Shown in pieces: positions 12,200-28,367 of a stretch of DNA of 28,367 nt. The DNA is taken from positions 1 to 28,367 of IMG/VR virus record IMGVR_UViG_3300020056_000122; one strand, 5' to 3'. The translations under genes and the position numbers were made by a program. How positions within the stretch are numbered: position 1 is the stretch's first letter; every line of letters begins with the position of its first letter. The stretch comes from a virus. The notes under the pieces were generated by a model that was given only the letters and a program-made list of their open reading frames with translations, made no database searches and was not told where the DNA came from.

Positions 12200-12610
12200 T
12201 TATTTTATTGTTGAATAGGCTTCAAACCATTCAGGTGTTGAAATAATCTCGCTTATTACGCTTTTGTCATCGATATTGATTTGAATTAATCCACCTTGTT
12301 TTTGGATAGATTTCCAAAACTTCTTTAAGACTCCGATTTTTTTATATTGATTTTCATCAAATTCAAGAACTTCAATTCCAGTAATTTTTAAGACATCGGT
12401 CGGCCTAACAAAGGAATACATTCCAGATCCAACTGCATTTGTTTTTTCATCTCGACCCATTATTGTTCTTGAGTGAATAACTCCAAAATAGTTTAGTCTT
12501 ACAAGGTCTGCTGGTTGAAAGGTTTTAGCGTTTTTATATTTGTTTACAAAATCTTCTACCGACATATTTGCCTCGTTTACAAACTGTTCGAATAATTTTA
12601 CATGTTTCAT
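12200..12610 (-). CDS. Capsid-targeting-leader protein, unknown 136-aa
   Basis: The N terminus MKHVKLFEQFVNE|A matches the leader shared by nine other genes here and resembles the T4 capsid targeting sequence (MKTYQEFIAE|A) cut by the prohead protease after Glu. The mature part, about 123 residues, contains a small beta-rich segment (ADLVRLNYFGVIHSRTIMGR, then VRPTDVLKITGIEVLEFDEN) that might be an SH3-like or KOW-like fold. I do not recognise it. It is a lone cassette between gp45 and nrdA, bounded by two near-identical terminators and with its own candidate late promoter (12638-12647). That fits late expression and packaging into the head. Targeting is inferred from the leader only. Confidence 0.8.
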   Translation of the reverse strand: MKHVKLFEQFVNEANMSVEDFVNKYKNAKTFQPADLVRLNYFGVIHSRTIMGRDEKTNAVGSGMYSFVRPTDVLKITGIEVLEFDENQYKKIGVLKKFWKSIQKQGGLIQINIDDKSVISEIISTPEWFEAYSTIK

Positions 12611-12637
12611 GCTGTTACTTTTTATTTCTAACTTTAT

Positions 12638-12647
12638 CTATATATTC
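12638..12647 (-). promoter_or_regulatory. Candidate late promoter for the 136-aa tagged gene
   Basis: The minus strand reads AAGAATATATAGATAAAG around these bases, 27 bases before the ATG at 12610 and just past the nrdA terminator. The core is AATATATAG, a slightly degenerate match to the recurrent element. Confidence 0.4.
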
Positions 12648-12658
12648 TTAATCTAAAT

Positions 12659-12690
12659 AAAAAAGCCAGGAAGTAGCGAATCTTCCTGGC
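12659..12690 (-). terminator. Intrinsic terminator after nrdA
   Basis: On the minus strand GCCAGGAAG pairs with CTTCCTGGC (9 bp, 8-base loop), followed by TTTTTT. It ends the nrdB-oxygenase-nrdA transcript. It shares the GCCAGG stem and flanking A-run with the terminator at 12150-12180. Confidence 0.9.
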
Positions 12691-12695
12691 AAAAT

Positions 12696-12742
12696 CCGTG
12701 AACTTTCACGGTCCTAAGACGAGGTCTTCAAACCTCACCGTC
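12696..12742 (-). other. Structured nrdA 3' untranslated region (two extra hairpins)
   Basis: Between the nrdA stop (12744-12746) and the terminator are two further inverted repeats. One is CCGTGA/TCACGG around a 4-base loop (12696-12711). The other has GAC/GTC plus GAGGT/ACCTC with a 3-base bulge (12718-12742). Neither has a U-tract, so they may protect the mRNA 3' end or be a small processed RNA. No known riboswitch or RNA family is recognised. Confidence 0.5.
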
Positions 12743-12743
12743 T

Positions 12744-14651
12744 TTATCCATCACATGATAAACAATCAGGATCCATTGCTCTTGTTGCAATATCTCCACG
12801 TAGAACGCTCTCCGTTCTCATGTAATAGAGTGTCTTAATACCTTGGTCATATGCTTCGAGATGAACTTGGTTAATAAACTTAGGTTCAGCCTCTTTTGGA
12901 AATGCCAAGTTTAATGATACTGACTGATCGACGTATTGTTGTCTAACTCCTGCCTGTCTAACCAATTCCATTTGATTAATCTCCTTAAACGTTCTAAACA
13001 CATCTTTCATTGGGATAAAGTTATCTTGATCTGCTGTTAGTTTTGATAACTCTTTTTTATGAATAGGTGTACCAAGACCGTTATTATCATTATATAATGT
13101 TCCGTGATGTACAAAGTAATCATCCATCCAGGCAATTCCCTGAACGCTTCCTCCGTCCTCTAGTATCTTATTCCAAGTTGTTTTTGTATTCTTACCAATT
13201 GCCTCGAGTGCCGTTTCAAGTGTTGGGTTCTTGCGAATGAATGTTCCTTTTGCCGTTTGCTCAGTAAATACGTTTGCTGCCCATGGCTCTACTCCTGGAG
13301 AAACATTACCACTCAACTTTGAATTAGAAACTGTTGGAGCAACTGCTCGTAAGTGAGTGTTGCGCATTCCAGTACCAACACACCATAGAGGTTCTCCGTA
13401 CTCTTTTGCCATATCACGGCTTGCTTTCTCGCTTTCGGTCTTTAATTCACTAAAGATCTTACGGGTTTCAAATTGAGCCGATAAGCCTTCAAATGGAATG
13501 TTACGATCTTGTAGGTATGTGTGCCATCCTAGGACTCCAAGTCCTAATGCTCTTCCTTTTTCTGCTGAACGAATAGAGTTCTCAAACCCTCGCATGTATT
13601 TTGCCTTTTGAATAAACTCTTCAAGAACTCCATCAAGGAACCAAGTTGCTGTGTAAATAAGATCGGTATCTTTCCACTCATCATATTTTGCTAGGTTTAA
13701 TGAGCTTAAACAACACACAAACGAATGATTTTCATCAGTGTGGAGAGCAATTTCAGAACAGATGTTTGTCATAAATACTTTTAGACCATTGTTCTTATAT
13801 GCATCTGGGTTTGCATTATTTACATTACCCTTAAACATGATGTATGGCTCTCCAGTAGCTCTTCTTTTTCTAAGAAGAGCTGCCCATCTCTTGCGAGCCT
13901 CTTTGTCTCCCTCTTTGATTCTTTGCATAAAACCATCAGGAACAATAACACATTGGTGAAGGTTAAGAGATTGTCTGTTTACGTCTCCTTTCGGTTCACG
14001 AATTTCTAACCATTCCCAAAAGTCTTTGTGTTCAATATCAATATTTACCGATGCTGCTCCTCTGCGAACTGAGCCCTGATTTGTCGCAAGAATCGTTGAA
14101 TCATAAATCTTACAAAACGGGACAACACCATCACTGGTACCGTTTCCTCTAATTGTGGCTCCAGCTGGTCTGATTTGGTTGATTCCAATACCAACTCCAC
14201 CTCCATGTTTTGCCAACAACATCATCTCTAGATTTTTTGCACCGATATCATGAATTGAATCGGCAACATCAATTCCAAAACAAGAGATTGGCAACCCTCG
14301 CTCGGTTCCAGTATTTGATAGAACTGGAGAAGCAAGGTTTAACCATCCCTTCCAAATATAATCAAAGAATTTACTTGCCATTTCAGGTCTTTGAAGTCTT
14401 TTTGCAGCTGTTGTCGCTACTCTCCAATAGGCATCTTTCGGAGTCTCACCTTCTAATAGGTAACCCTTACTTATGGTCTTAACATAAACTTCTGTATTTG
14501 CCCATGTTGGAAAATCAACTCCTAGTTCCCAATCAAGATGAGAACCCTGGTTTTTTTCTGATTGTTCTGAGAAACTGTTGCTAACTGCTTTTTTTTGTAT
14601 TGCTTTTAATTCTTTTGAATATGCTTTATCTTGTCTTTGCATTTTAAACAT
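12744..14651 (-). CDS. nrdA: Ribonucleotide reductase large subunit, class I (NrdA), without ATP-cone
   Basis: A 635-residue class I large subunit. Catalytic residues are present: C124 (PISCFG), N296-x-C298-x-E300 (NICSEIAL), C313 (FVCCLS), the radical-transfer pair Y609-Y610 (KTLYYMRT), and the C-terminal redox pair C630-x-x-C633 at the very end (DPDCLSCDG). E. coli and T4 NrdA are about 755-760 residues; the missing part is mainly the N-terminal ATP-cone that gives dATP overall-activity control, so this enzyme may escape that feedback. It reduces NDPs to dNDPs with NrdB for phage DNA synthesis. A second in-frame ATG three codons on is an alternative start. A TATATAAAA match at 14657-14667 lies only a few bases before the ATG. 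Confidence 0.98.
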   Translation of the reverse strand: MFKMQRQDKAYSKELKAIQKKAVSNSFSEQSEKNQGSHLDWELGVDFPTWANTEVYVKTISKGYLLEGETPKDAYWRVATTAAKRLQRPEMASKFFDYIWKGWLNLASPVLSNTGTERGLPISCFGIDVADSIHDIGAKNLEMMLLAKHGGGVGIGINQIRPAGATIRGNGTSDGVVPFCKIYDSTILATNQGSVRRGAASVNIDIEHKDFWEWLEIREPKGDVNRQSLNLHQCVIVPDGFMQRIKEGDKEARKRWAALLRKRRATGEPYIMFKGNVNNANPDAYKNNGLKVFMTNICSEIALHTDENHSFVCCLSSLNLAKYDEWKDTDLIYTATWFLDGVLEEFIQKAKYMRGFENSIRSAEKGRALGLGVLGWHTYLQDRNIPFEGLSAQFETRKIFSELKTESEKASRDMAKEYGEPLWCVGTGMRNTHLRAVAPTVSNSKLSGNVSPGVEPWAANVFTEQTAKGTFIRKNPTLETALEAIGKNTKTTWNKILEDGGSVQGIAWMDDYFVHHGTLYNDNNGLGTPIHKKELSKLTADQDNFIPMKDVFRTFKEINQMELVRQAGVRQQYVDQSVSLNLAFPKEAEPKFINQVHLEAYDQGIKTLYYMRTESVLRGDIATRAMDPDCLSCDG

Positions 14652-14658
14652 TTTAATT

Positions 14659-15090
14659 TTATATAAACATCAAGAAGACTGTTCTCTTGCCTTCATGTGA
14701 AGTAACCATATGCCATTCATCTGATGTATGTGCACATAGGTCGCCAATTGATCTTTCCTGCTTGACAACGTTGGTTTTTCCTTCATCATCAGCATAATAT
14801 GTTTCTCCTCCTGTAAAAGATCCATTTAATAAGATAGAAACTCCTACCTGGCACCACAACATATGATTATTGTCACCAGTGTCTTTGTGCCATCCATGTC
14901 CTTGTGGCATTGTTTCTATTCTCCAATAAGATTCGTCCTTAATTTCAAAGTTAAAATGTTCTCTTAACCTATCAATAACCTTACCGGCTATAGGATTCTG
15001 AACCTTATTAATCTTATAGGAACCAGGTTTTGTCCCTAATAAGAGGGATATTTCATCCATTGTTAAAAAATCTTTCTCGAATATTCTCAT
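14659..15090 (-). CDS. 2-oxoglutarate/Fe(II)-dependent oxygenase (prolyl-4-hydroxylase-like)
   Basis: A 143-residue double-stranded beta-helix oxygenase. Iron ligands fit H68-x-D70 (GHGWHKDTG) and H127 (DEWHMVTSHEG), and R136 (GKRTVFLMF) would bind 2-oxoglutarate. GGETYYAD (94-101) is typical of the family. I chose the ATG at 15090, two bases after the nrdB stop. An upstream TTG at 15117 would add nine basic residues read from inside nrdB and looks less likely. Small 2OG oxygenases are common in T4-like phages, but the substrate is usually unknown. Placement between nrdB and nrdA suggests a nucleotide or DNA-linked role, or simply insertion at a permissive site (inference). Confidence 0.85.
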   Translation of the reverse strand: MRIFEKDFLTMDEISLLLGTKPGSYKINKVQNPIAGKVIDRLREHFNFEIKDESYWRIETMPQGHGWHKDTGDNNHMLWCQVGVSILLNGSFTGGETYYADDEGKTNVVKQERSIGDLCAHTSDEWHMVTSHEGKRTVFLMFI

Positions 15091-15092
15091 TG

Positions 15093-16097: not shown

Positions 16098-16130
16098 AAT
16101 ATTCTTATAATACCTTATTTTTTAGACTAC

Positions 16131-16160
16131 AAAGGGTCTAAATAGAGATTTAGACCCTTT
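16131..16160 (-). other. Strong hairpin in the nrdB leader (possible attenuator or terminator)
   Basis: AAAGGGTCTAAAT and ATTTAGACCCTTT pair perfectly over 13 bp around a 4-base loop. On the minus strand no U-tract follows (GTAGTCTAAAAAA), so it is not a standard terminator for 43A. On the plus strand a T-rich but broken tract follows. It lies between a promoter-like element and the nrdB ATG, so it would be part of the nrdB 5' untranslated region. Confidence 0.7.
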
Positions 16161-16172
16161 GGTTGTTTGTTG

Positions 16173-16185
16173 TTTTTTATATATC
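16173..16185 (-). promoter_or_regulatory. Candidate late-type promoter ahead of nrdB
   Basis: The minus strand reads GATATATAAAAAA in the 43A-nrdB gap. It matches the recurrent element, but it lies 76 bases before the nrdB ATG with the hairpin in between, so the leader would be longer than for other genes. Confidence 0.45.
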
Positions 16186-16213
16186 AAACTCTCCAAAGGG
16201 ATGTTGCACTTTT

Positions 16214-17614
16214 CTACTTAAATTTTTTTTTAAGTTCGTGTGCTTTTTCGTAGTATTCATATGAGGTCTTTTTATACTCTTTACGTTGAGCATATAGATC
16301 ACTCAGGATTCTTTTAAGAATTGAGTCCTCTTTTGAATAGACTACACCATTTTCACAGACAATTTCATCAGGATTCTTCCTACGTTCTTCGATTTGATCC
16401 TTTGGTATCATATCGATATATGCATCAGGAGAAATATTAAACTGTCTCATAACTGACGGATATAGGGATGCGAAGTCAAATGCACTTACTCCAGAATAAT
16501 AACCAACAATTGGTTGTTTTACAAATGCTCCAGCATATTTACCATCCTTCTTGCCTTCTTCTCGATTGTAATCAACTCCAATCTTATGATTTGTTTCAGC
16601 AAGCTTTCTAGCCATTAGAGCCTCAGTAACTGCTACCGGAGAAGCCGCTTTATAAAGTGGCATCTGGGTAATTGTTGCAAGAGTCAAGAGTACTTCCATT
16701 GACTTTAACTTTTGGTCAATGTAATATACGAGGATTGAATCGACAACATTATAATAAACATACTTTTGAAAGTCGTTTTCATAAAGGTCCTGTAGACCTC
16801 CAGTATATTTAATCTTTGCGACATCAAGTACTTGACCTGAAACAAAGTCGAGTTTATTTGACTCTTTTACTTTTACACTTCGATCATACTTATCATAAAG
16901 TTGCATATAATCGAGAATGCCCATATGGAGAGGTCGACTATCATTATTATCAAGAGAACCTGTAACTGCTATTTCTGTCAAGTCGATCTGAAGTCTCTTA
17001 CAACGATTAACGATATACTGCCAGTCATAATTAATAAAGTTCCAACCCGTCATCATTGGGAACTTAGGAAGGAATTTATGTAAGAACGTATACAACATAT
17101 TGTATTCGTCTTTAAACTTGTAATAACTAAACTCCCAGTCCTGATCGTACTTTTTGAAATGCTTAAGCGTATCGTCTTCGATCTTTTTAATTTGTTCAGC
17201 TGACAAATCTTCAAGACCTAACACGATTGCCTTTCTCTCAGGTGTGATGATTGAGAATGTTAAGATTCTACTTTTAGCCTCTTCTGCTCTTGGAAAACCA
17301 TCGAGGATTTCAGTTTCAATATCGACAAAGTATGTTCTTGGAATATTAAACTCAAATATTTCTTCACGATCACGCTCTGGCAGAGAATCCATAAAATAAA
17401 CAAGCGAGAACTTATTAAATGATCTCGCTCGCTGTCTTTTAATAGGTCTTCCGTCCCAATTTGTGAAACTTCCGTCTTTCCACTTATCTTTTTCTTCCGT
17501 AACTACCCAATTCTCAAATTGACTGACTGGGTACCTCTTAAATGCTACTTTACCCTCTTTGTTATAATATGATACGATTACCTCTTGGTCTTTTTGTTCT
17601 ATATCTAATAGCAT
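16214..17614 (-). CDS. 43A: DNA polymerase gp43, N-terminal half (43A: exonuclease and motif A)
   Basis: A 466-residue protein equal to the first half of T4-type gp43. The 3'-5' exonuclease motifs are complete: Exo I FVDIE (D98, E100), Exo II NFINYD (N192, D197) and Exo III YNVVD (Y288, D292). Motif A is FDFASLYPS (D380). The chain then enters the fingers with AQRKEYKK (442-449) and stops at KKKFK. Motifs B and C are in the separate gene at 10141-11343. The two halves total 866 residues against 898 for T4 gp43, so little is lost and an active two-chain polymerase is likely. The end shows no intein N-terminal Cys block and no frameshift site, so joining by splicing is not indicated. A candidate late-type promoter (17636-17646) precedes it, overlapping the end of mgsA. 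Confidence 0.95.
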   Translation of the reverse strand: MLLDIEQKDQEVIVSYYNKEGKVAFKRYPVSQFENWVVTEEKDKWKDGSFTNWDGRPIKRQRARSFNKFSLVYFMDSLPERDREEIFEFNIPRTYFVDIETEILDGFPRAEEAKSRILTFSIITPERKAIVLGLEDLSAEQIKKIEDDTLKHFKKYDQDWEFSYYKFKDEYNMLYTFLHKFLPKFPMMTGWNFINYDWQYIVNRCKRLQIDLTEIAVTGSLDNNDSRPLHMGILDYMQLYDKYDRSVKVKESNKLDFVSGQVLDVAKIKYTGGLQDLYENDFQKYVYYNVVDSILVYYIDQKLKSMEVLLTLATITQMPLYKAASPVAVTEALMARKLAETNHKIGVDYNREEGKKDGKYAGAFVKQPIVGYYSGVSAFDFASLYPSVMRQFNISPDAYIDMIPKDQIEERRKNPDEIVCENGVVYSKEDSILKRILSDLYAQRKEYKKTSYEYYEKAHELKKKFK

Positions 17615-17635
17615 TCAATTTATATTTTAATTAGT

Positions 17636-17646
17636 GTTTATATATG
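17636..17646 (-). promoter_or_regulatory. Candidate late-type promoter ahead of 43A
   Basis: The minus strand reads CATATATAAAC, 21 bases before the ATG at 17614 and overlapping the stop of mgsA. It is one of the best matches to the recurrent element. A late-type signal ahead of a polymerase gene would be unexpected in T4 terms, so this element may not be late-specific in this phage. Confidence 0.45.
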
Positions 17647-18641: not shown

Positions 18642-18644
18642 ATT

Positions 18645-18655
18645 GTTTATATAGG
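18645..18655 (-). promoter_or_regulatory. Possible late-type promoter directly before the HAD gene
   Basis: The minus strand reads CCTATATAAACAATATG, with the ATG ending the string. The core matches the recurrent element, but the distance to the start codon is only a few bases. If used, the mRNA would be leaderless or nearly so. It lies after the terminator at 18690-18717, so some promoter is needed in this gap. Confidence 0.4.
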
Positions 18656-18689
18656 CGGGTTTACACTTGTTTCTTATACTAATATAAAC

Positions 18690-18717
18690 AAAAAAGCCGA
18701 GACTAAAAAATCTCGGC
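18690..18717 (-). terminator. Intrinsic terminator after the 288-aa gene
   Basis: On the minus strand GCCGAGA pairs with TCTCGGC (7 bp, 8-base T-rich loop), followed by TTTTTTG. It closes the accessory block and separates it from the HAD-mgsA unit. Confidence 0.9.
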
Positions 18718-18742
18718 TTAAATCTTTTAAAAATTATGTAAG

Positions 18743-19609
18743 TTATCTAAAGTCAGCTCTAACCTTAAACTTTCGGTCTTTAATAACATTATTCATCTCG
18801 TTAGAAAGGTAGGCTAAGATTTCCATCTGAGCATTCTTAGCAGCTTCATCAACAGAATCTTCGGCCATATATCTTGAAAAATCTTCCCAATTATTTGCAG
18901 TTTCTTTATACCAATCTTTAAACTCTTCAATTAGGTTCGTTGCTGGTACATCAAAACTCGGTAGTTCAATATATTCTTCATTGACTTTAGATTCATTAAC
19001 TGTAAGTTCGTATCTGTACTTAAATGCTTTATCTGCTGTAGACTTTGACATCGTTTTAGCTTTGATGCCCATCTTTTTAAGTTTAGCTTCAGTTTCTTTG
19101 CGATCGTAATTATCTTCAAATCTTAAAACTAATTGATTACCCCAGTTTTCACTTTCGACATACTCAACAGAGTTTGCACCTATGCCGTACGGATTGTCTT
19201 TATACTTATCTACAAGATCTTGAAATGTCATTGCCTCATTAACGATGCCCTCATTTACAAATGCTTCAAATGTTTTTAAATGTTTCATTTTTCTTTTCTT
19301 TTTTCTGTATTCTTCTTCAGCATCTCCTTGCCCTGCAGGAACATCACCAGAACCGTTCTCTGTAGATGTTGGAAGCTTGACCGGTCCGATTCCTCCGACG
19401 CTATCAATTGAGATATTTTCAACAACCTCTGGGAGGCCTTCGTGTTTTGTTTCTGCAAAACCTTTTAATTGTTTTAGAGTCATACCACTGGCAAGATCTT
19501 TTACTTTGTCTCTATAATCTACATCGACGTCCGAAATCTGCATATCGCCCTTTTTAACAGCGTATGCTACTCCCATTAATCTTTGCTGCGTTTTACTTTG
19601 ACTTGGCAT
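18743..19609 (-). CDS. DUF3008-like N-terminus joined to a capsid-targeting-leader protein
   Basis: A 288-residue frame with two unlike halves. Residues 1-62 (PSQSKTQQRLMGVAYAVKKG, then AETKHEGLPE) match a small phage and bacterial protein family of unknown function that starts P(S/A)KSKxQQRLMGMA. A Gly/Ser/Thr linker and a basic run (YRKKKRK) follow. Residue 108 then begins a full leader, MKHLKTFEAFVNE|G, trailed by IVNE|A. This internal ATG (19288) follows A-rich sequence like other starts here, so a 181-residue tagged protein may be made from it. The tagged part has a repeated-helix pattern with no known motif. Either a fusion of two genes or one gene with two starts is possible. A terminator (18690-18717) follows. 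Confidence 0.8.
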   Translation of the reverse strand: MPSQSKTQQRLMGVAYAVKKGDMQISDVDVDYRDKVKDLASGMTLKQLKGFAETKHEGLPEVVENISIDSVGGIGPVKLPTSTENGSGDVPAGQGDAEEEYRKKKRKMKHLKTFEAFVNEGIVNEAMTFQDLVDKYKDNPYGIGANSVEYVESENWGNQLVLRFEDNYDRKETEAKLKKMGIKAKTMSKSTADKAFKYRYELTVNESKVNEEYIELPSFDVPATNLIEEFKDWYKETANNWEDFSRYMAEDSVDEAAKNAQMEILAYLSNEMNNVIKDRKFKVRADFR

Positions 19610-19627
19610 AGTTTGCTTTTATTTTGA

Positions 19628-19822
19628 TTAGAATTTTTGATATTTTGATGTAAAATCTATCATTTGGGGTCCCATTTTCCTAATAAAATCAATAGTTTGT
19701 TGAGATATATCTGAAGTGTTTTCTAAATAATCACAAGCTTCTTCAATTTCTTTCTTTAATGCTGATGTAGAGATTACCTTTGCTTCATTTACGAAATGTT
19801 CAAGTAATTTTACGTGTTTCAT
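19628..19822 (-). CDS. Small capsid-targeting-leader protein (64 aa)
   Basis: A 64-residue protein, of which the first 13 residues (MKHVKLLEHFVNE|A) are the shared leader. The remaining 51 or so form short amphipathic helices (TSALKKEIEEACDYLENTSD), with a basic end. After removal of the leader it would be a peptide of about 6 kDa, comparable with the small internal proteins of T4. No family recognised. It lies 18 bases before the 288-aa gene in the same unit, after the 792-aa gene. Confidence 0.78.
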   Translation of the reverse strand: MKHVKLLEHFVNEAKVISTSALKKEIEEACDYLENTSDISQQTIDFIRKMGPQMIDFTSKYQKF

Positions 19823-19843: not shown

Positions 19844-22222
19844 TTACCAAACGTAATCCATTTTTTTAATCTTAGAGATTCTGTCTTTAATTGACTTAGC
19901 GTAATTCTTTACTTCTCTTGAGTAGTATTTGCTAGGGTAACCTTCTTCTTCTTCACGCTTTGCTTGATTTGTATAGTCTACATATCTGTTAAAATCATCT
20001 AGAAGATTTTGCATTACGTTTGAAGCATCTCTTAGTTTAACCTCACGGCCTTTAGGATCCTTTCCGATGATAACATCTCCGTACTTTCCTTTTTCACCAG
20101 TAGCTAAACCATCTTTAATTTGAGAGGTAACTACATCAATTGCATTTAAGACTTCTTTATCGATAGGCATTTTAGCAGCTCTATCTGCTAGGATCATGTG
20201 GTATCTGTCAAGATTTTCTTTCTTAAAGTCTTTATCATTTTTAAACGAGATTGCTCCTTTTCTTGCAGTAGTTCTTTTAACACGCATTCCCTCGGTAGAA
20301 TATCTTGCTCTTAGAATGTCAAGATCAAGAACATATGCTCTATCAGCAAGTTCAGCTACTTTAGTAATACTTGAGATTCCAGATCCCCATGAGTCTCTAA
20401 CGTTACTTTTATTAAACCCAACAGCATCCTCTTTTCTAGATGTTGATAAGGTTTTCTCTCTTGATGCTCCAAATCTTCTAAGATATTCACTAGCAAGCCA
20501 TTCATTTTTTCCATTAGTTGCACCTAATAATGTGTTTGCAGGAATCACATATACACCCCAAGAGTCTTTACCTGCATATGGGTTCTTCTTTTCATTAGTT
20601 GTAAAATACAGGTAAACTGCATTATTTCTCTTTTCTTTTCTTGCATCAACTGGATCCATTTCGATAATATCTACATCTTGGATTTTATCAAGTTGAATCT
20701 TTGCCATATTGTAGAATACTTTAGCAAAATCTTTTTGCATAGAGCCTGCGCCCGTTAAGATTGACTGTAACTTCATTGATTGAAATGCTTCGGCAACCAT
20801 CTCTTCAGCTTCATTAACTGACTCTTTAATACCTAAGAATTCAGCAGCAGCTGATTTAAGTTCATCATAGGTGTATCTTCCTGTTAGTGCGTCGTCTAGA
20901 ATAGTTCCAGTCTTTCTACCTCCAGATGCATATAGCGATACGTGGTCAAAACCTAACCAGTCTCCACCTCCAAACTCATCCTTTGGATTCAAACCAAGAT
21001 CGGTTGAAAGTGTGAATGAAAGTGATTTTCTTCCTAAGAATTGGTCATTGTAACCTAATTTTCCAGCCTTTACATAGGCTGCTGGGTTTTCAGCTTCATT
21101 AACTGACTCTTTAATACCTAAGAATTCAGCAGCAGCTGATTTAAGTTCATCATAGGTGTATCTTCCTGTTAGTGCGTCGTCTAGAATAGTTCCAGTCTTT
21201 CTACCTCCAGATGCATATAGCGATACGTGGTCAAAACCTAACCAGTCTCCACCTCCAAACTCATGTTTAGGATTTAGACCTAAGTCTAATGAAAGTGCTT
21301 TAGAAAGAGATTGTCTTCTATCTAAAAACTGATCATTATAACCAAGTTTACCAGCGCTAGCATATTTATTCTCATTTAGCGATTCGATGAATTCACCAAA
21401 TGATTCATATACAAAATTATTTTTCATTTCTTTATTATTGTTTTTTGATTCAAATGTTCCTGTTGATGCTAGGTTGTAAAGGTGATCGGCAATCTTTTTA
21501 GCTTTTGAACCCTTATGTCCATAAGTTGCAACTGTTTCTTCAGCCTCTTTGGGCATCATCTCTGTTAATTCCCATGGGTCAAACTCATCCATTAAATCAT
21601 TTAAGATTTGTTTAGCCTCTTTTTCAAACCTATCGGCCTCGTGAAGTTGATCATCTTCTTCTTCGTCTTCAACGCCATCGCCGTCCTCATCATCGATTAC
21701 GCTAGCATCAAGGCCAGTTCCTCTTGGTACACCAATTGTATCTGCTAGAGCTCCTGTAAGTCCTGGAGCCAGCTTTTTAGCTAGGTTTGGAGCTTTTTCC
21801 TCTAACTCTTCTTCTAACTCTTCTGAGTTTTCTTTAATTGTAACTGGGAAAGTTTCTCCGTCAAACTCAAATTCTTCTTTACCTTCGTCTTTTGCTTTTT
21901 TAGCAGCAGCAACAAATGCTCTACCTTCTTCAATAACTGCAATCTGTGAAAGTGCTCTTTTTCCAAATGTAGAAAGCGAAATACCGTCTTCCGAAACGTT
22001 AAAGTATTTTGTGTTTCTTCTGATCCACTTTGAAGAGTCTTTAGAATATTCTTTTAAGATCGCATCAAATTCTTCCTGTGTAATTTTTCCATCGGCAATT
22101 GCTTCAAGCATTTTATTTCTAACGCTAGCGCTTTTTCCAACTTGTACCGCAGGATGATTTTCAGTGTATCTTCTCTTAAGGGTTATTTTACTTCCCTCGT
22201 TTAAAAAATCTTGAAAATTCAT
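19844..22222 (-). CDS. Large modular leader-tagged protein with internal tandem repeat (putative internal polyprotein)
   Basis: A 792-residue multi-part protein. It starts MNFQDFLNE|G, a short form of the leader. Residues 177-191 are a run of Asp/Glu with a DxDxDG calcium-loop look. A second leader-like unit starts near 266 (MKNNFVYESFGEFIESLNEN). Two copies of a domain of about 90 residues follow (290-378 and 386-473: AGKLGYNDQFL, GGGDWLGFDHVSLYASGGRK, ending IKESVNEAE). Each copy ends in the same protease-site-like IKESVNE|AE. The last 310 residues are a separate basic domain I do not recognise. The order suggests that a prohead protease could cut this into several mature pieces. No enzyme motif is visible. 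A candidate late promoter (22241-22257) precedes it. It is a real gene; the polyprotein idea is inference. Confidence 0.82.
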   Translation of the reverse strand: MNFQDFLNEGSKITLKRRYTENHPAVQVGKSASVRNKMLEAIADGKITQEEFDAILKEYSKDSSKWIRRNTKYFNVSEDGISLSTFGKRALSQIAVIEEGRAFVAAAKKAKDEGKEEFEFDGETFPVTIKENSEELEEELEEKAPNLAKKLAPGLTGALADTIGVPRGTGLDASVIDDEDGDGVEDEEEDDQLHEADRFEKEAKQILNDLMDEFDPWELTEMMPKEAEETVATYGHKGSKAKKIADHLYNLASTGTFESKNNNKEMKNNFVYESFGEFIESLNENKYASAGKLGYNDQFLDRRQSLSKALSLDLGLNPKHEFGGGDWLGFDHVSLYASGGRKTGTILDDALTGRYTYDELKSAAAEFLGIKESVNEAENPAAYVKAGKLGYNDQFLGRKSLSFTLSTDLGLNPKDEFGGGDWLGFDHVSLYASGGRKTGTILDDALTGRYTYDELKSAAAEFLGIKESVNEAEEMVAEAFQSMKLQSILTGAGSMQKDFAKVFYNMAKIQLDKIQDVDIIEMDPVDARKEKRNNAVYLYFTTNEKKNPYAGKDSWGVYVIPANTLLGATNGKNEWLASEYLRRFGASREKTLSTSRKEDAVGFNKSNVRDSWGSGISSITKVAELADRAYVLDLDILRARYSTEGMRVKRTTARKGAISFKNDKDFKKENLDRYHMILADRAAKMPIDKEVLNAIDVVTSQIKDGLATGEKGKYGDVIIGKDPKGREVKLRDASNVMQNLLDDFNRYVDYTNQAKREEEEGYPSKYYSREVKNYAKSIKDRISKIKKMDYVW
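20804..20979. repeat. Perfect direct repeat, copy 1 (176 bp)
   Basis: Identical base for base to 21089-21264 (offset 285 bases). It encodes the conserved part of the tandem domain from DEFGGGDW or HEFGGGDW to the IKESVNEAE linker. Sequence on either side, though from the same duplicated domain, differs at many positions, including silent ones. Confidence 0.97.
21089..21264. repeat. Perfect direct repeat, copy 2 (176 bp)
   Basis: Partner of 20804-20979. Perfect identity over 176 bases inside a domain whose remaining third has diverged points to recent gene conversion or unequal recombination between the tandem copies. Confidence 0.97.
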
Positions 22223-22240
22223 ATTTAATTGTTTCTTTGT

Positions 22241-22257
22241 TTTTTTATATATCTTTC
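22241..22257 (-). promoter_or_regulatory. Candidate late promoter for the 792-aa gene
   Basis: The minus strand reads GAAAGATATATAAAAAA, about 19 bases before the ATG at 22222, overlapping the end of the upstream gene. It is one of the best matches to the recurrent element and fits late expression of an internal head protein. Confidence 0.5.
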
Positions 22258-23510
22258 TTAGTTAAGAACTGAGAAAACGTAAGAAGATTCGACTCATCGA
22301 TAGGACTCTCTTGCGTTTTTAACTTTTGATGGTTCAAATAAGTCTTAAAGGGCATTACGCTTGATTCGTTACTCTTTAACATAACAATTGCCTCAATTTT
22401 ATCGACAATTGTATTGATTTGCTCCATTAAGTCTGCATTTATAATATCAGTCTCTTTTGCTCTTCTCTTTCTAAATGAACCAATTGCAATCTTATATAGT
22501 TCTGAAAGAACCCTATTGTTTACGTATTCGATTGTCTTTTCGTTCTTGATAAATTTAGTATTTAATTCAAATTCAGGTCGATCACTAAAATCCGCAGAGT
22601 CAAAACTAACACCAACATATTTTGCTGCATTCTCATTAACATATGCGTTAAATGCATTTGAAATTAGTTCAATGTATCTCTCGTCTGCTTGGTCTGATTC
22701 AAGTTGAATATTATCAACATCATATTCAGAAAAGAACTCAACTAGGTCTAATAGTGAAATTTGATATGTGTCGCTTGGTTTTCTAGACTCACTAACCTCA
22801 GTTTTTGTTCCACTAAGTTTAAAGTTTTTTACCGTCTTGCCATCAAAGAAATTAATAACTAAAGAATCAATATCTCCGTCAAGATCTTCATTAAGAGCCG
22901 TCTTACTTAACGAATTATTAAAAATGTTATATGCTCTTCTGGTAAAACTTAACGCTTCATATGCTTGATTTCTTTCGGCATCACTCATTTCTAATAGTTT
23001 TACTAGCTCATCTTTCTGATGAGAACTCAATACTCCTTTAAAAACAACCTGTGGTCTTTGAACATCTAATTTATCTGCCCATTCAAAAAGAACCTTTGGG
23101 TCTCTAATAACCTTCTTTATTAGTGTATTGTCTAGAGGGTTCATTACCTGAATATGCGTTAAGATAAGCCCGTTCTTTGGTGTTTGATCGTATTTAATGT
23201 CAATTGTTTGACTGTCTGTCATGTAGTCAAAACCAAACTTCCAGTCAAGTGGCATTTCAGCCTTTGTCGCGTCATCAACCGATTCAAAATATTTAATTGC
23301 ATTCTCATAATATTTAGCGATTGTGCGATCTACTTTATCCAACGACTTCTTTTTACCACTCTTAAAATAGGTGTAACCAACTGAATTGTTTTGAACGTGA
23401 AACGAAGATGCCTGTACTTTTTCAGTAACAACACATGGAGACTTTAGCATCTCCATAAAATCTTCTCTATTCGTTGATTCAAAATATGTATGTAAGCTTT
23501 GTAGTGCCAT
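22245..23510 (-). CDS. Unknown 421-aa protein, possibly a divergent ligase-like nucleotidyltransferase, with a leader-like C terminus
   Basis: A 421-residue protein without the N-terminal leader. Residues 27-37 (VVTEKVQASSF) look like nucleotidyltransferase motif I (K31-x-Q-A in place of KxDG). WKFGFDYM could be motif III. IDSLVINFFDGKTVKNFKL, about 100 residues later, could be motifs IV and V of the ligase/capping-enzyme fold. The match is weak, and D and E residues at key points are missing, so this is tentative. Residues 280-400 are helical. The final residues, SNLLTFSQFLTKKDI, strongly resemble the leader of the neighbouring ligase-like gene (KLFTYEEFLTE), but at the C terminus. It sits between the 371-aa and 792-aa leader genes. 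Function unknown. Confidence 0.75.
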   Translation of the reverse strand: MALQSLHTYFESTNREDFMEMLKSPCVVTEKVQASSFHVQNNSVGYTYFKSGKKKSLDKVDRTIAKYYENAIKYFESVDDATKAEMPLDWKFGFDYMTDSQTIDIKYDQTPKNGLILTHIQVMNPLDNTLIKKVIRDPKVLFEWADKLDVQRPQVVFKGVLSSHQKDELVKLLEMSDAERNQAYEALSFTRRAYNIFNNSLSKTALNEDLDGDIDSLVINFFDGKTVKNFKLSGTKTEVSESRKPSDTYQISLLDLVEFFSEYDVDNIQLESDQADERYIELISNAFNAYVNENAAKYVGVSFDSADFSDRPEFELNTKFIKNEKTIEYVNNRVLSELYKIAIGSFRKRRAKETDIINADLMEQINTIVDKIEAIVMLKSNESSVMPFKTYLNHQKLKTQESPIDESNLLTFSQFLTKKDI

Positions 23511-23517
23511 AGTTTTA

Positions 23518-24633
23518 TTATTTAGCGATGTCTTCTGGTAGAGGCAGACCTGACATTCCTAGTTTAACTTCAAATTCTTTAAAGATCTCATCTCTCTTTT
23601 TAGGAAACTTAAACATTGATGAGTTAATTAAATCTCTTAAACTCTCATATGTCATTAAATCACTTACTTTTGCGCCATCGAAGAGAAGGTCTGCTATCTC
23701 TTCTGGTAGTCTTGTAATTTCTTTATCGAATTCTTTTAGTAACTTTGCGTTTTTAACCAATCCTCTCTTACCAACAAATGATTTACGAACCTTTACAACT
23801 CCTTGATTCAAGCGAATTACATATGCTTCGTACTCTTTTGTTTCTCCCTCTTCTGTTTGATCTATAATCTCAACAAATGATTTACCAATTGCTGACATTA
23901 GGAGGATGTTTCTATATGCACCTTTATATTTTGACTCGTCTTTTGTAAAGTCTGGAGAGTGGTACATAAATCTACTCCAATTAATATCTCTTGATAACAT
24001 TAGGTCGACTTGACCTACTCCATTATTTGATTTACCCTCAATAGGAGCAGCGATTGATACCTGCTGGAATCCTACAGCCATCGAGGTGTCTAACCCTTTT
24101 TCTTTCAATAAATCATTCATATCGAAAAGAACTTTAGCCAGTGAAGTGTCTAAGTGTCCTGCAATCTTATCGGCAGAAACAGCAATATCAATGTCTCCGC
24201 TAGTCTCTCCTGGATTCTTTTTTCCAGCGCTACCAATAACTGCAGCATCCTCTCCGATACCATCAATTCCTAAGTGTGGAAATACGTTTTTCTCGATCCA
24301 TTCTAGGGTTGCTGCAACTTCATGTTGTTCAAATGGTCTGGACTGTGCAATTGCATTACCACTTTCACTTACAAACTGTTCAAACGCAGCTGCAACATAT
24401 TTACGACCGTGTTTATTATGTAATATGTCTGAGATTAGACCTTCTTTGTCAAGCCCTTTAGGGTTACCAATTTTATAACTTAGCGACCACATCTTTCTTA
24501 ATTCAGCAGTTGACATCTTTTTAAGTTTTTTGTACTCTCTGCGGATTGATTCAGGATCCCTCTTTGAAGAAAAGTTTGATCGCGGAATCTTATCTTCACT
24601 TACAAACTGTTCAAATAATTTAACGTATCTCAT
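23518..24633 (-). CDS. Leader-tagged two-module protein with a pol-beta-type nucleotidyltransferase domain
   Basis: A 371-residue protein. The leader MRYVKLFEQFVSE|D (1-13) is followed by a basic helical module of about 75 residues, then a second copy of the leader core, FEQFVSE|S, at 84-90. The second module has the nucleotidyltransferase pattern: GSAGKKNPGETSGDIDIAV, with G134-S135 and D147-x-D149, and a third acid at D210 in GQVDLML. That is the DNA polymerase beta-like fold (CCA-adding, poly(A) and related enzymes). If the prohead protease cuts at both sites, it would free a small basic protein and a nucleotidyltransferase of about 280 residues inside the head. The substrate is unknown. 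Start chosen for the leader. Confidence 0.78.
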   Translation of the reverse strand: MRYVKLFEQFVSEDKIPRSNFSSKRDPESIRREYKKLKKMSTAELRKMWSLSYKIGNPKGLDKEGLISDILHNKHGRKYVAAAFEQFVSESGNAIAQSRPFEQHEVAATLEWIEKNVFPHLGIDGIGEDAAVIGSAGKKNPGETSGDIDIAVSADKIAGHLDTSLAKVLFDMNDLLKEKGLDTSMAVGFQQVSIAAPIEGKSNNGVGQVDLMLSRDINWSRFMYHSPDFTKDESKYKGAYRNILLMSAIGKSFVEIIDQTEEGETKEYEAYVIRLNQGVVKVRKSFVGKRGLVKNAKLLKEFDKEITRLPEEIADLLFDGAKVSDLMTYESLRDLINSSMFKFPKKRDEIFKEFEVKLGMSGLPLPEDIAK

Positions 24634-24641
24634 CTCTGTTT

Positions 24642-24995
24642 TTACTTATTATGATATTCTATTTGGTCTTTTAAAAATTCCTTAATTGTTGGAATTACAT
24701 CATCTTCAGAATTAATTTCATCAGCCCAGTTGTCATCACCAAAAACCTCTCCATTTCTAAAAAATCGAATAGATCCGTAATCACGATCATTATCTTTGTA
24801 TTTAGGTCCAGTCAGAATATAATCCATTCTATTTGGCAGAATTCCCTCTTTTTCAATAGTTGCCGGATACCCAGCCTTTTTAAGTATCTTAGCCACTTTT
24901 CTCAGGTTTAATTTTACACCTCTATCTCTTCCTACTTCTGTAGGCGTTATCGTGTATTCACCTATAAACTGCTCAAATAATTTAACGTATCTCAT
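24642..24995 (-). CDS. Capsid-targeting-leader protein, unknown 117-aa
   Basis: The leader is MRYVKLFEQFIGE|Y, differing at the cut site by a Tyr. The mature part (about 104 residues) is a small alpha/beta protein: a basic helix LRKVAKILKKAGYPATIEKE, then strands around YILTGPKYKD and SIRFFRNGEVFGDDNW, and an acidic C-terminal helix. I do not recognise a family. The ATG overlaps the stop of the adenylyltransferase-like gene by one base (TAATG), so it is in the same unit. Confidence 0.78.
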   Translation of the reverse strand: MRYVKLFEQFIGEYTITPTEVGRDRGVKLNLRKVAKILKKAGYPATIEKEGILPNRMDYILTGPKYKDNDRDYGSIRFFRNGEVFGDDNWADEINSEDDVIPTIKEFLKDQIEYHNK

Positions 24996-25591
24996 TATAT
25001 GTGTTTTCTTAATTTGTCATAGTATTTATAAAGATATTTCGGCACCATCTTTTCGAATGCTTCTCTATCATCATTTGCAAGTGCTTCTCTAGTCTTTGTA
25101 CCGCTAGGTCCTCCTTCTGCTCTTGCATCTACCATTTCTAGTTTAAAATCCGGATGTACAACCGTATCAGTCTTTGGTCCAGTAACATATTTAATCTGTG
25201 GTGTGTATGCCTTGATTCTGTCGCTTCCAGCACCTACACCAACAGTCTCATATCCTTGTTCTCTTAAGAATCTAACAAACCAAGGAATTACTGTTCTACC
25301 ATAGCTATTTGGGTAAATAAAGAAATCTGCGATCTCCTTCTCGTTCTTTGCAACCTCTTGTCCAATTTGAAGTAGAAGGCTTTCTGGGAATGGAGACTCT
25401 TCACGCTTTGAAACTATTTGCATTGCAACTACTGGCTTGCCAAAGATTTTAGCAGCATTTTTAAGTGCCGCGATATGACCATTGTGAAATGGCTGAAATC
25501 TTCCAGGCATTACAACAATTTCAGTACCCTCAATTGGTTGAGTTACATCAGCCTCGTTAATGAATTGTTCAAATAGTTTAATATGTTTCAT
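24995..25591 (-). CDS. Leader-tagged NMN adenylyltransferase-like nucleotidyltransferase
   Basis: A 198-residue protein: leader MKHIKLFEQFINE|A, about 10 linker residues, then a cytidylyltransferase-type Rossmann enzyme. The signature GRFQPFHNGH (30-39) supplies the HxGH ATP-binding site, and SGTKTREAL (163-171) is the C-terminal (S/T)xxxxR phosphate-binding motif. GRFQPFHxGH with this C-terminal motif is typical of nicotinamide-mononucleotide adenylyltransferases (NadM/NadR type), which make NAD+ from NMN and ATP. Pantetheine-phosphate or other adenylyltransferases are alternatives. Such genes occur in T4-like phages as part of NAD salvage, but a capsid leader on one is unusual. If delivered with the genome, it could act at once in the cell (inference). 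Confidence 0.78.
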   Translation of the reverse strand: MKHIKLFEQFINEADVTQPIEGTEIVVMPGRFQPFHNGHIAALKNAAKIFGKPVVAMQIVSKREESPFPESLLLQIGQEVAKNEKEIADFFIYPNSYGRTVIPWFVRFLREQGYETVGVGAGSDRIKAYTPQIKYVTGPKTDTVVHPDFKLEMVDARAEGGPSGTKTREALANDDREAFEKMVPKYLYKYYDKLRKHI

Positions 25592-25619
25592 AATTATATG
25601 TATTCTTTAATGTGTTTCA

Positions 25620-25979
25620 TTATTCCTTTATGAATCCCATCCAATTATCAGTAATACCTAAAACACCACTTCCACCGACCATCTTATCCCCAGCCTTCCA
25701 GTCCATGTAAGGTCTATTTGTGGAACGACCATCGCTGATATAGGTAAGTCCTAGGTCTTTCCCAGCTGCTTTAAGTTTAGCTCTATCTGCATAGCGAGTA
25801 TAGTTAACAAAAAGTTTTACTTCACCTCTGTGGTTAGCAGCTTTAGCTTTAGTAACAGAAGGAACTGCTTTCTTTAGCTTCTTTTCGTAGTCTGCTGCTT
25901 GTTTTAAGTTGATTCTCTTTTCAAAAAGATTTGATTTTGCTTCATTTACAAATTGTTCAAATAGTTTTACGTGTTTCAT
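25620..25979 (-). CDS. Capsid-targeting-leader protein, unknown basic 119-aa
   Basis: The leader is MKHVKLFEQFVNE|A, identical in protein sequence to that of the gene at 12200. The mature part of about 106 residues is strongly basic (many Lys and Arg: KQAADYEKKLKKAVPSVTKA, then ANHRGEVKLFVNYTRYADRA), with a small alpha/beta core and a Gly-rich C-terminal part. Basic internal proteins that bind DNA or core are usual for T4 (IPII, IPIII). No family recognised, and no catalytic motif seen. The 42-base leader coding sequence is nearly identical to that of the next gene. Confidence 0.8.
   Translation of the reverse strand: MKHVKLFEQFVNEAKSNLFEKRINLKQAADYEKKLKKAVPSVTKAKAANHRGEVKLFVNYTRYADRAKLKAAGKDLGLTYISDGRSTNRPYMDWKAGDKMVGGSGVLGITDNWMGFIKE
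25938..25979 (-). repeat. Dispersed leader-coding repeat, copy A
   Basis: These 42 bases code for MKHVKLFEQFVNEA and differ at only two positions from 26205-26246. More diverged copies begin the genes starting at 12610, 19822, 24633, 24995 and 25591, and occur internally near 19288 and 24382. Confidence 0.85.
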
Positions 25980-25997
25980 TTTGATGCTATATTTTAT

Positions 25998-26246
25998 TTA
26001 ATAACCAAACTCATAACCTAGAACGTTTTCAACATGTGATTCTAATTCTTCTCTAGTATCGCTTAGTTCATCTGAATTTGGATCTACTAGACCTTTATCC
26101 ATTAAATAGTCAATAAACATGTCCATGTCTTCTGCATCCCAAACATCTCTTCCTTTCATTGTTTTAGCCCACCATTTTTTAGCCTCTTTCTCGATTTTCT
26201 TATCGGCTTCATTTACAAATTGTTCAAATAGTTTTATGTGTTTCAT
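25998..26246 (-). CDS. Small capsid-targeting-leader protein (82 aa)
   Basis: An 82-residue protein with leader MKHIKLFEQFVNE|A and about 69 residues of mature, acidic, helical protein (KKIEKEAKKWWAKTMKGRDV, then EDMDMFIDYLMDKGLVDP, ending ENVLGYEFGY). It is much more acidic than the neighbour at 25620, so the pair could be complementary. No family recognised. It has an A-rich leader, and spacing to neighbours of 18 and 8 bases places it in the same transcription unit. Confidence 0.8.
   Translation of the reverse strand: MKHIKLFEQFVNEADKKIEKEAKKWWAKTMKGRDVWDAEDMDMFIDYLMDKGLVDPNSDELSDTREELESHVENVLGYEFGY
26205..26246 (-). repeat. Dispersed leader-coding repeat, copy B
   Basis: These 42 bases code for MKHIKLFEQFVNEA, with 40 of 42 identical to copy A at 25938-25979. 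Conservation at the DNA level as well as the protein level suggests copying or recombination among these leaders, not only selection on the peptide. Confidence 0.85.
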
Positions 26247-26254
26247 TTCTATCT

Positions 26255-27544
26255 TTATTTTTTGTACGCTAAGATACTTCTGATTTGATGGATTGGTGCA
26301 AAAATACCAGTGTACTTATAGACTTTACCTTTATAAACAAATGTAATACCTTCGGTAGGTACAATGTTCTCTAATCCTCCAACTGCTGCAACTCTACTTA
26401 ATTCATGTTCAAGTTTTTCAACATCTGTCGCATCTCCATTTTTTCTAATAGTATTAATAGCAGTCTCGATCTCTTTGCGCATCTGCTCTCCAGCATGTGT
26501 TGGGTTTGCGGATAAGAAAGCCTCCATGTGCTGCATCATCTCTGTACCAACCTCTAGGAAAAGATTTTCAAGAGGAGCATAGATTTGCTTCTTAATCATC
26601 TTTTCGTTCTTTTTCTCGAAATCACTATACTCTTTTGTTAAATCAGGACCCATGTCCTTTTTCATTTTGGCAACACTATATGATTTGTTGATCCCTCCAA
26701 GTCGATTAGCAATTCCTTCAATTGACTCTTCTGGAATATCCATGTCTAGGCCTCTAACGACGTTAACTGCTCTACCAACGACAAAATCCTGTACTGTTGA
26801 ATTTAAGTTAATACCTGCATCCTGCATGATACCTTTTAGTTTGTCATTATAATACTTTGCTCTCGCTTTGGTATTCTTAAATGGCTTGATAGGAATATCC
26901 TGAGGACCCCTAACATAAAACATCTCTTGTGCAGCAGCATTTGCATCGGCTATCATTTTACCAAGATCTCTACCAGCCTGCTTGTCTTCTCCAACTACGT
27001 TTCCATCAATGTCGTATTCTACAATACCATGAAATACTAGCATGTCTTGACCATAAGGAACAGTGTTCTGTGTTACAGGAGTCATAATCTCGACGCTTGC
27101 GAATTTTGTACCTTCACCAAACATCTTTTCTTTATCACCAGGAGAAAGGGCTCCAATTGAAGCATTTAGATCGCGCATTGCTGTGTTGTATGCAATTTCA
27201 ATATCTCCTCTGTCTTTAAATTTTGCAGCAACATCGGCTGCTGTCATTGCGTTTTCACCAGCATTCTTAAGATGACTCTTATTTCTTGCAGCGATTAGTT
27301 GACCATTCTTCCATGAAATTGAAAGCTGCTGGCCGTCAGTTTTTTCTTGGACGAAGTTTTCTGGACCAAATGCTCCTTGAACTGTAGCATCAATCATATC
27401 TTTTACATCCGTCATTGTTAAACCTAAGTCTTCAAACGGGTGAGTAAGGTGACCATATGCTCCACCTTCAAATAACGGTTCGAGGTCAGTATTTCTGACC
27501 TCTCTTTCCGTTAAAAATTCTTCGTATGTAAATAGTTTATTCAT
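26255..27544 (-). CDS. Leader-tagged ligase-like covalent nucleotidyltransferase (KxDG motif)
   Basis: A 429-residue protein starting MNKLFTYEEFLTE|R, close to the T4 capsid leader. Residues 67-71 are EKTDG, the motif I of ATP-dependent DNA/RNA ligases and capping enzymes (K68 would be adenylated), with RNKSHL as motif Ia. FASVEIM (E152) fits motif III, EGITFV (398-403) motif IV, and KVYKYTG (K407, K410) motif V, near the C terminus. Motifs III and IV are about 245 residues apart, much more than in T4 DNA or RNA ligases, and the intervening part is helical. No OB-fold domain remains after motif V. DNA or RNA ligase, or another nucleotidyltransferase, cannot be told apart here. The ATG directly follows the upstream stop codon. 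Confidence 0.68.
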   Translation of the reverse strand: MNKLFTYEEFLTEREVRNTDLEPLFEGGAYGHLTHPFEDLGLTMTDVKDMIDATVQGAFGPENFVQEKTDGQQLSISWKNGQLIAARNKSHLKNAGENAMTAADVAAKFKDRGDIEIAYNTAMRDLNASIGALSPGDKEKMFGEGTKFASVEIMTPVTQNTVPYGQDMLVFHGIVEYDIDGNVVGEDKQAGRDLGKMIADANAAAQEMFYVRGPQDIPIKPFKNTKARAKYYNDKLKGIMQDAGINLNSTVQDFVVGRAVNVVRGLDMDIPEESIEGIANRLGGINKSYSVAKMKKDMGPDLTKEYSDFEKKNEKMIKKQIYAPLENLFLEVGTEMMQHMEAFLSANPTHAGEQMRKEIETAINTIRKNGDATDVEKLEHELSRVAAVGGLENIVPTEGITFVYKGKVYKYTGIFAPIHQIRSILAYKK

Positions 27545-28367
27545 TTATCCTAATGAAGATTGTAAGGCTCCTACCATTGCACCATAATCTCCGTTATGTT
27601 TTGAAATTAAACCATCGACTATTTCTTGTGCTTTTTCTTCGTCAAATTTATCTCCGAATGCTTTTTGAAGTACTGCAAAAGCATATTCTTTGAAGTCATC
27701 ATCTGATTTTACTTCAGCTTCAGTAACTACTGATTCTTTAAATTGCTCAATATCTTTATATTTGATTTCAAACTCTTCACCGTCTGGATCAAGTGCGTAG
27801 ATATAATCATCGGCAGCCCACATCTCAGTGTTTTCATCGTTACCATTATCTGGATTATAGATGATGTACCACTTTCCATTAACTAGGATTTCGGCGTCAT
27901 CGTGATTCTTGATTAACTTTAAAAGCTTCTTCTTATCGTATTTAGCTTCGGTAACTACTGATTCTTTAATATCAAATGAATGAACTCCTCCACCTGACAT
28001 AATACTACTCCATTTAACGTGCGTTAGCTCTACTTCTGGATATAGCATCTTTACTTGAGCGATTACATAGTCTGGATTTACTCTATATGCGTATCTAACC
28101 TCTAGTTTTTTCTTATTAAGTTTTACAACCTTTGGTGGTGTATTACCATTATGTGCTATGCTAAGTTGATATTGTACATCGCTCTTATTTAGACCTTCGC
28201 TTACTTCAACAGCCGCTGATTCCATTGGCTCAAACATTTTAACCATCATTTCAAAGTCTTTCCTAAAATAACTTCTTAGGTAACCTCTAACCGCATCGTC
28301 AATTAAACCATCTCTATCTCTTTTGTATTCTGGCCAATCATCCCAGTGCCAATCAACTGCATTTTCA
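27545..28367 (-). CDS. Modular protein with repeated KESVVTEA linkers (partial, runs off the right edge)
   Basis: The frame is open from the TAA at 27545 to the end of the window (about 273 residues). The ATG at 28249 is internal: upstream codons read WHWDDWPEYKRDRDGLIDDA and on into MMVKMFEP without a stop. Three segments are separated by near-identical linkers. IKESVVTEA lies near 27944-27970 and FKESVVTEA near 27716-27742, both followed by a charged start (KYDKK, EVKSD). EVSEG farther upstream may be another. The linkers resemble IKESVNEAE in the 792-aa protein and have the (hydrophobic)-x-E|A form of prohead protease sites. The middle segment is a small beta domain (DAEILVNGKWYIIYNPDNGN), the last is helical. 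Function unknown; an internal head polyprotein is the working idea. Confidence 0.72.
   Translation of the reverse strand, partial: ENAVDWHWDDWPEYKRDRDGLIDDAVRGYLRSYFRKDFEMMVKMFEPMESAAVEVSEGLNKSDVQYQLSIAHNGNTPPKVVKLNKKKLEVRYAYRVNPDYVIAQVKMLYPEVELTHVKWSSIMSGGGVHSFDIKESVVTEAKYDKKKLLKLIKNHDDAEILVNGKWYIIYNPDNGNDENTEMWAADDYIYALDPDGEEFEIKYKDIEQFKESVVTEAEVKSDDDFKEYAFAVLQKAFGDKFDEEKAQEIVDGLISKHNGDYGAMVGALQSSLG

Follow-up and report, generated by a model that had tools for sequence, protein, structure and literature searches.

The capsid targeting sequence (CTS) of the phage T4 internal proteins, MKTYQEFIAE|A, is the closest described counterpart of the element studied here. Within it, residues 4 and 7 direct targeting and residues 8 and 10 govern processing, with L/I-x-E as the cleavage motif; an Asp at position 10 stops processing and leaves targeting unaffected (PMC9026906). 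The three T4 internal proteins block different GmrSD restriction enzymes (PMC12373910), and the internal-protein loci of T-even phages hold diverse defence proteins with only the CTS in common (PMC3012670). Knowledge of the signal has so far come chiefly from a handful of anti-restriction proteins in enteric phages. We analysed a fragment of 28.4 kb from the genome of a T4-related phage (28,367 nucleotides; IMG/VR record IMGVR_UViG_3300020056_000122, here G000), referred to as the window, in which a set of genes begins with closely similar short leaders that a preliminary description had likened to the T4 signal. Our analysis indicates that the leader is very probably a general tag that acts as capsid targeting sequence and propeptide in the manner of the T4 internal proteins; packaging, cleavage and injection of the tagged proteins are what we infer from the analogy with T4.

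Leaders in the window and their likeness to the T4 signal

The window holds 33 called genes, almost all on the minus strand, and all window features described below lie on that strand. For comparison we used contig G001 (98% identical), record G002 (166,616 bases, 93% identical), the genomes G005, G009 and G012, which are more distant than G002, and LR756500, a 462-kb huge phage; T4, KVP40, P-SSM2, HTVC008M, Mel-JY01, PTm1 and 400 kb of Lak served as comparison phages. The leader profile has nine columns and was trained on the clade of the window phage only. Its shape is F/Y at -6, F/Y at -3, L/I/V at -2 and Glu at 0; leaders in the window read MKHxKLFEQFVNE|A or close forms, and MKHIKLFEQFVNEA is one leader peptide of the clade. 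At 12 bits or more, 9 of the 33 window genes carried the leader (13.8 to 27.7 bits); shuffling the N-termini of these genes gave an expectation of 0.00, and no shuffled sequence came up to 8 bits. As had been proposed, unrelated mature domains stand behind one leader: the mature parts of the nine genes yielded 0 homologous pairs at E<=1e-4. The preliminary description had counted ten such genes. Nine are true ATG starts of minus-strand open reading frames (ORFs) with the N-termini it gave, and the tenth, at 19288, exists in frame but is not a normal gene start; it belongs to a family with internal or C-terminal tags behind a DUF3008 domain.

Run on the 253 genes of T4, the clade-only profile retrieved just ipII, ipIII (18.4 bits) and 61.1 (18.2 bits) above 8 bits, with the next gene at 6.2 bits, in support of the proposed match to the T4 internal-protein CTS. 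At the positions defined in T4, the leader has an aromatic residue at 4, Phe at 7, I/L/V at 8 and Glu at 10. The T4 gene at 73591-73878, with the N-terminus MKTFKEFTSTTTPVSTITE|A, is presumably ipI, and its score is near zero because the cut site lies at some distance from the FKEF part. As a separate observation, the uncharacterised T4 gene 61.1 (NC_000866, 18966-19130) starts with MKTFKEFIKE|D, placing Asp at P1', and is a candidate for a further T4 internal protein.

Genome-wide counts exceeded the large tagged set that had been claimed. At a threshold of 10 bits, leader genes numbered 9 of 33 in the window, 14 of 78 in G001, 21 of 182 in G002, 25 of 284 in G005, 28 of 284 in G012, 26 of 207 in G009 and 27 of 634 in LR756500, where shuffling predicts 0 to 0.5 per genome. 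The same threshold gave three in T4, two each in KVP40 and P-SSM2, and none in HTVC008M, PTm1 or the 400 kb of Lak examined. Leader-type proteins of the window and four genomes (n=120) fell into 76 clusters, and a scan of IMG/VR contigs turned up one exact leader form in no fewer than 119 stretches. The form is genome-specific, being MKHIKLFEQFVNE in G002 and G012, MKNIPTFEDFVNES in G009 and MKYIKEYEEFLLE in LR756500. Other shared N-termini were seen in two of the comparison phages. At least six proteins of Lak-A1 (L216-L235) begin with a sequence like MNKNIKKLLE|SLFDDD (for example the genes at 21479, 59059, 183581, 193058 and 304508), which is possibly Lak's own head-loading leader, and the PTm1 genes (L151-L162) at 139854, 141765, 148753, 208828 and 224211 have in common a short N-terminal I.E|[NS][FL] that could be the PTm1 version.

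Sequence comparison indicates that selection acts on the leader peptide, not on the DNA, because the upstream DNA is not conserved and codon agreement is only modestly above expectation. Within one genome, leader peptides are on average 47-64% identical and the DNA upstream of them 35-42%; at identical leader residues, codons agree in 56-67% of cases against 49-55% expected from codon usage (four genomes), with 0.58 against 0.49 in G002 at 60% amino-acid identity. Upstream identity and codon agreement rule against a conserved regulatory DNA element or a recent DNA duplication, both of which we had considered.

Prohead protease, scaffold and core protein

The window edge cuts inside gene 20 (portal), of which the 5' part is present (1-484). 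This is the edge of the head gene cluster; core protein, protease-scaffold and gp23 continue outside, and the gene order beyond is identical in the 98% and 93% identical relatives, namely gp20, a small acidic protein, a gp21-type protease and gp23. The preliminary description had made its reading depend on a gp21-type protease in the genome. Such a protease (S77) was found in both relatives (PF03420, E about 1e-15), the window itself ending inside gp20 just before it, and the motifs LGELDHP and SSR..G align to T4 gp21 with His and Ser conserved.

In T4 the protease and the scaffold are the separate genes 21 and 22, whereas in this clade they form one polypeptide. The fused frame of about 595-717 amino acids (43482-45410 in G002, for example) has homologues in G001, G005, G009, G012, LR756500, Lak and PTm1; a separate protease frame of about 220 amino acids is found in T4, KVP40, P-SSM2, HTVC008M and Mel-JY01. 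At the junction of protease and scaffold, [VI]NE|[SA] is conserved in six clade records and INE|S is present in Lak, matching both the cut motif of the leader and T4's own ITES. The acidic protein in the gp67 slot, between portal and protease, starts with MRYVKLFEQFIKE|E in G002 and with MKYVKLFEQFIKE|D in G001, and its counterpart in G012 has a weaker leader form. By position and composition this protein is expected in the prohead core, and its N-terminus reads as the same tag.

Cargo, turnover and tags in other positions

A function could be proposed for several of the tagged proteins. The gene at 24995-25591 (leader MKHIKLFEQFINE|A, 25553-25591, 27.7 bits) encodes an NMN (nicotinamide mononucleotide)-adenylyltransferase-like protein (PF01467, E=2.1e-7) that is fused to an RNA ligase in distant relatives. 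The product of 26255-27544 (leader MNKLFTYEEFLTE|R, 27506-27544, 18.8 bits) is a putative KxDG ligase-superfamily protein: EKTDG/EKLDG is conserved in 17 relatives with K-x-D-G invariant, and all top Foldseek matches are RNA/DNA ligases, although weak ones (best E=0.011, template modelling score <0.4). Gene 23518-24633 (371 amino acids; leader MRYVKLFEQFVSE|D, 24595-24633, 22.5 bits) has the motif GS..SGDIDI of a putative nucleotidyltransferase. PDB sequence-profile searches with the KxDG protein and the 23518-24633 family returned nothing useful, and PADLOC run on ten cargoes gave no significant match. The other leader genes are 12200-12610 (136 amino acids, no assigned mature domain; leader MKHVKLFEQFVNE|A, 12572-12610, 27.5 bits), with a homologue in the 98% relative (L099:7389-7799, 97%) and no counterpart found in the 167-kb relative; 19628-19822 (64 amino acids; MKHVKLLEHFVNE|A, 19784-19822, 13.8 bits), whose mature sequence recurs in the 167-kb relative behind a different upstream context; 19844-22222 (792 amino acids), with the short leader MNFQDFLNE|G (22196-22222, 17.6 bits), repeated units and internal SVNE|A-type sites; 24642-24995 (117 amino acids; MRYVKLFEQFIGE|Y, 24957-24995, 23.4 bits); 25620-25979 (119 amino acids; MKHVKLFEQFVNE|A, 25941-25979, 27.5 bits), which is missing from the 98% relative; and 25998-26246 (82 amino acids; MKHIKLFEQFVNE|A, 26208-26246, 27.5 bits), of which that relative has two copies.

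Even phages that are 98% identical differ in their cargo genes, while the flanking genes are conserved. In the interval from the NMN-adenylyltransferase-like gene (25591) to the KxDG gene (27544) there are two small leader genes in the window, four in the 98% relative and a different four in the 93% relative. Leader loci are thus variable, as are T4-type internal-protein loci, and by the same analogy they are predicted to be dispensable; turnover between conserved flanks resembles what is described for T-even internal-protein loci.

Tagged cargo in the relatives comprised an HD-domain protein, a GNAT-like protein, a zeta/AAA-type kinase and an ATP-grasp-like protein; the leader-like N-terminus of a CCA-adding-like protein scored below threshold. 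Acb1 is a phosphodiesterase that counters the cyclic oligonucleotide-based antiphage signalling system (CBASS). A leader-bearing Acb1-like 2H phosphoesterase is encoded in G012 (105915-106457; L120:5915-6457; PF23474, 31.3 bits against a cut-off of 27; HCT and HMT motifs), and its leader-bearing homologue in G005 (196819-197370) reached 26.5 bits, just under the Pfam cut-off of 27. This cargo is a likely immunity blocker, which would fit the anti-restriction role of the T4 internal proteins. In T4 itself, an acb1-like ORF (73952-74410) adjoins the presumed ipI.

The tag also occurs away from the N-terminus. Gene 22245-23510, which was not on the earlier list of tagged genes, has no N-terminal leader and ends in a C-terminal tag (PIDE|S..LLTFSQFLTKKDI). 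Its product is predicted to be an RNA ligase (Rnl2-like) with a nucleotidyltransferase fold and the motif I lysine: the top Foldseek match of its model (predicted local distance difference test score 75) is T4 RNA ligase 2 (E=3.9e-7, prob 1.00), and the EKhxAsxF stretch keeps E30 and K31 unchanged in 16 relatives. A TFEQFI-like C-terminal tag was present in all 16 relatives examined, including those with a fused NMN-adenylyltransferase-like domain, and in most of them a [VI]xE site lies just ahead of it. The in-frame copy at 19288 lies in ORF 18743-19609, where a DUF3008 domain (PF11450, E=2.6e-8) is followed by the tag MKHLKTFEAFVNE|G and then by a further domain of about 170 amino acids. In this family of small phage proteins (L238-L317) the tag stands at the C-terminus of DUF3008, ahead of highly variable extra domains. 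The idea that the cut-site Glu is kept only if a domain follows the tag seemed to hold for the members first compared but was rejected on a larger sample (Glu kept in 20 of 39 followed tags and 5 of 13 terminal ones, p=0.53). Non-N-terminal tags overall showed only a slight excess restricted to a few families; as a genome-wide class, C-terminal tags showed no excess over shuffles, being limited to the RNA-ligase family and the DUF3008 proteins.

A second copy of the tag, FEQFVSE|S, lies about 70 amino acids downstream of the leader in gene 23518-24633. In an alignment of this family, the inserts between the two copies differ among the window, L004 and L005, and L003 has none. The C-terminal domain of 19844-22222 occurs as stand-alone leader-bearing genes in L023 and L059. 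Since inserts vary and this domain is also found as separate genes, the data suggest that some cargoes are strings of domains with protease sites between them.

Among the remaining window genes, a family B DNA polymerase is seemingly split in two (16214-17614 and 10141-11343), between motif A (DFASLYPSV) and motif B (KVTLNSIYGAFG), and is split likewise in G002; between the halves lie nrdB-like and nrdA-like genes, a leader gene and a gp45-like clamp. The host of this marine phage and its clade is likely a member of the Bacteroidota, because Shine-Dalgarno sequences are few and the nearest gp23 proteins are from Lak and Tenacibaculum phages. Shine-Dalgarno sequences precede 5-12% of clade genes against 4-6% by chance, with shares of 59% in T4, 52% in HTVC008M and 4% in PTm1, which infects Tenacibaculum; after LR756500, the closest named gp23 is that of Prevotella Lak phages, with Tenacibaculum phages slightly lower. 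Flavobacterium phage immuto was rejected as a cultured relative: it shares nrdA only and has PolA, not a T4-type gp43. No cultured phage with this leader form was found in the phage collection.

Possible roles of the leader and comparison with known systems

On the reading that we strongly favour, the KLFEQF part of the tag would bind the scaffold core as the prohead forms, the gp21-type protease would cut after the Glu of [VIL]xE and free the mature proteins inside the head, and these would be injected along with the DNA to act on the host, perhaps in RNA repair, nucleotide metabolism or counter-defence. The data suggest that phages of the clade inject a kit of ready-made proteins with their DNA. 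We offer more tentatively, as a possibility that we hold to be somewhat doubtful, that this pre-made kit (RNA ligases and NMN-adenylyltransferase-like, HD-domain, CCA-adding-like and Acb1-like proteins) acts before phage expression to undo tRNA cleavage, the loss of NAD+ and CBASS signalling, with a tag that works in any position, gp21 sites that separate domains and some cargoes that are strings cut in the head.

Several points weigh against the targeting and propeptide interpretation. A cargo function was recognised for a minority only, the Acb1 match being modest in G012 and below the cut-off in G005. Lak and PTm1 share the fused protease yet do not have the leader, which is not universal in the wider group. 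The P1' residue is frequently K, R, S or N instead of A, and 7 of 129 leaders have no Glu; four of these seven have [VIL]xE[ASG] within the next 21 residues, such as MKHIKLFEQFVNDPVINE|G, compared with 22 of the 122 Glu-bearing leaders (p about 0.02, small numbers).

Tagged proteins could also be loaded and cut mainly as core or DNA-condensing components that do nothing to the host after injection. The tag on the gp67-like core protein and the many small cargoes without assigned function would suit such a role, but several cargoes look like enzymes (NMN-adenylyltransferase-like, HD-domain, GNAT-like, kinase-like, Acb1-like and KxDG ligase-like), and cargo genes that come and go quickly between 98%-identical phages suit accessory functions better than head structure, so we consider this unlikely. 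It is very improbable that the leader has no targeting role and either arose as a side effect of gene duplication or serves as a recombination handle through which cassettes are swapped. Some leader genes in G005 and LR756500 are indeed true paralogues, and leaders do lie in plastic gene clusters; however, the window cargoes have no mutual homology, upstream DNA is unconserved, synonymous codons are near random at high peptide identity, the gp67-slot core gene is tagged too, and the leader matches an experimentally defined T4 CTS. We give hardly any credence to a leader that sends proteins elsewhere in the infected cell, to the membrane or a replication site, or that serves translation or stability. 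Leader genes are scattered over replication and structural regions, as such a role might allow, but the built-in cut motif [VIL]xE matches a site in the phage's own protease-scaffold, and in T4 no match other than the internal proteins has a known function. Because tags are also C-terminal and internal, the leader cannot act solely as a translation element tied to the start codon.

If tens of unrelated proteins per genome, some of them with folds that can be recognised, carry the tag, it would serve as a label from which the injected proteins of uncultured phages can be read off: genes acting at the first moment of infection could be listed from sequence, it would become directly possible to test what hundreds of orphan phage genes do, and a pool of new anti-defence proteins would be at hand. 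The signal is already used for protein delivery, and the clade appears to show a natural multi-cargo version of it.

Judged by its genes, the clade has every computable feature of the T4 internal-protein system. As in the CTS of T4 IPI, IPII and IPIII, the leader is N-terminal, about 10-13 residues long and built as MK, an aromatic residue and ..F[IVL]xE|A, and both systems share a gp21-type protease, unrelated mature domains and variable loci. T4 ipI, in which FKEF is followed further on by a separate site ITE|A, resembles the clade's MKHIKLFEQFVND..VINE|G. T4 has three internal proteins and about ten are known across T-even phages (PMC12373910), whereas the clade has 21-28 leader genes per genome. 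Besides this scale and its leader forms, the sequences of the clade differ from the T4 set in a tagged gp67-slot core protein, internal or C-terminal tags in some families and several likely enzyme cargoes. C-terminal processing of T4 Alt and gp21 by gp21 (PMC9026906) is a precedent for C-terminal propeptides; unlike these, the C-terminal element of the clade RNA ligases resembles the N-terminal tag (TFEQFI) and follows a [VI]xE|S site. The phiKZ-like phages SPN3US and phiKZ likewise have many injected head proteins whose N-terminal propeptides the prohead protease cuts (PMC5694885), as we propose for the clade, but SPN3US propeptides are mostly longer than 100 residues with no common short tag, in contrast to a 13-residue tag in phages with a T4-type gp23. 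In P1, an N-terminal signal also brings an anti-restriction protein, DarB, into the head (PMC9024508); that signal is a different one, with one known cargo compared with dozens in the clade.

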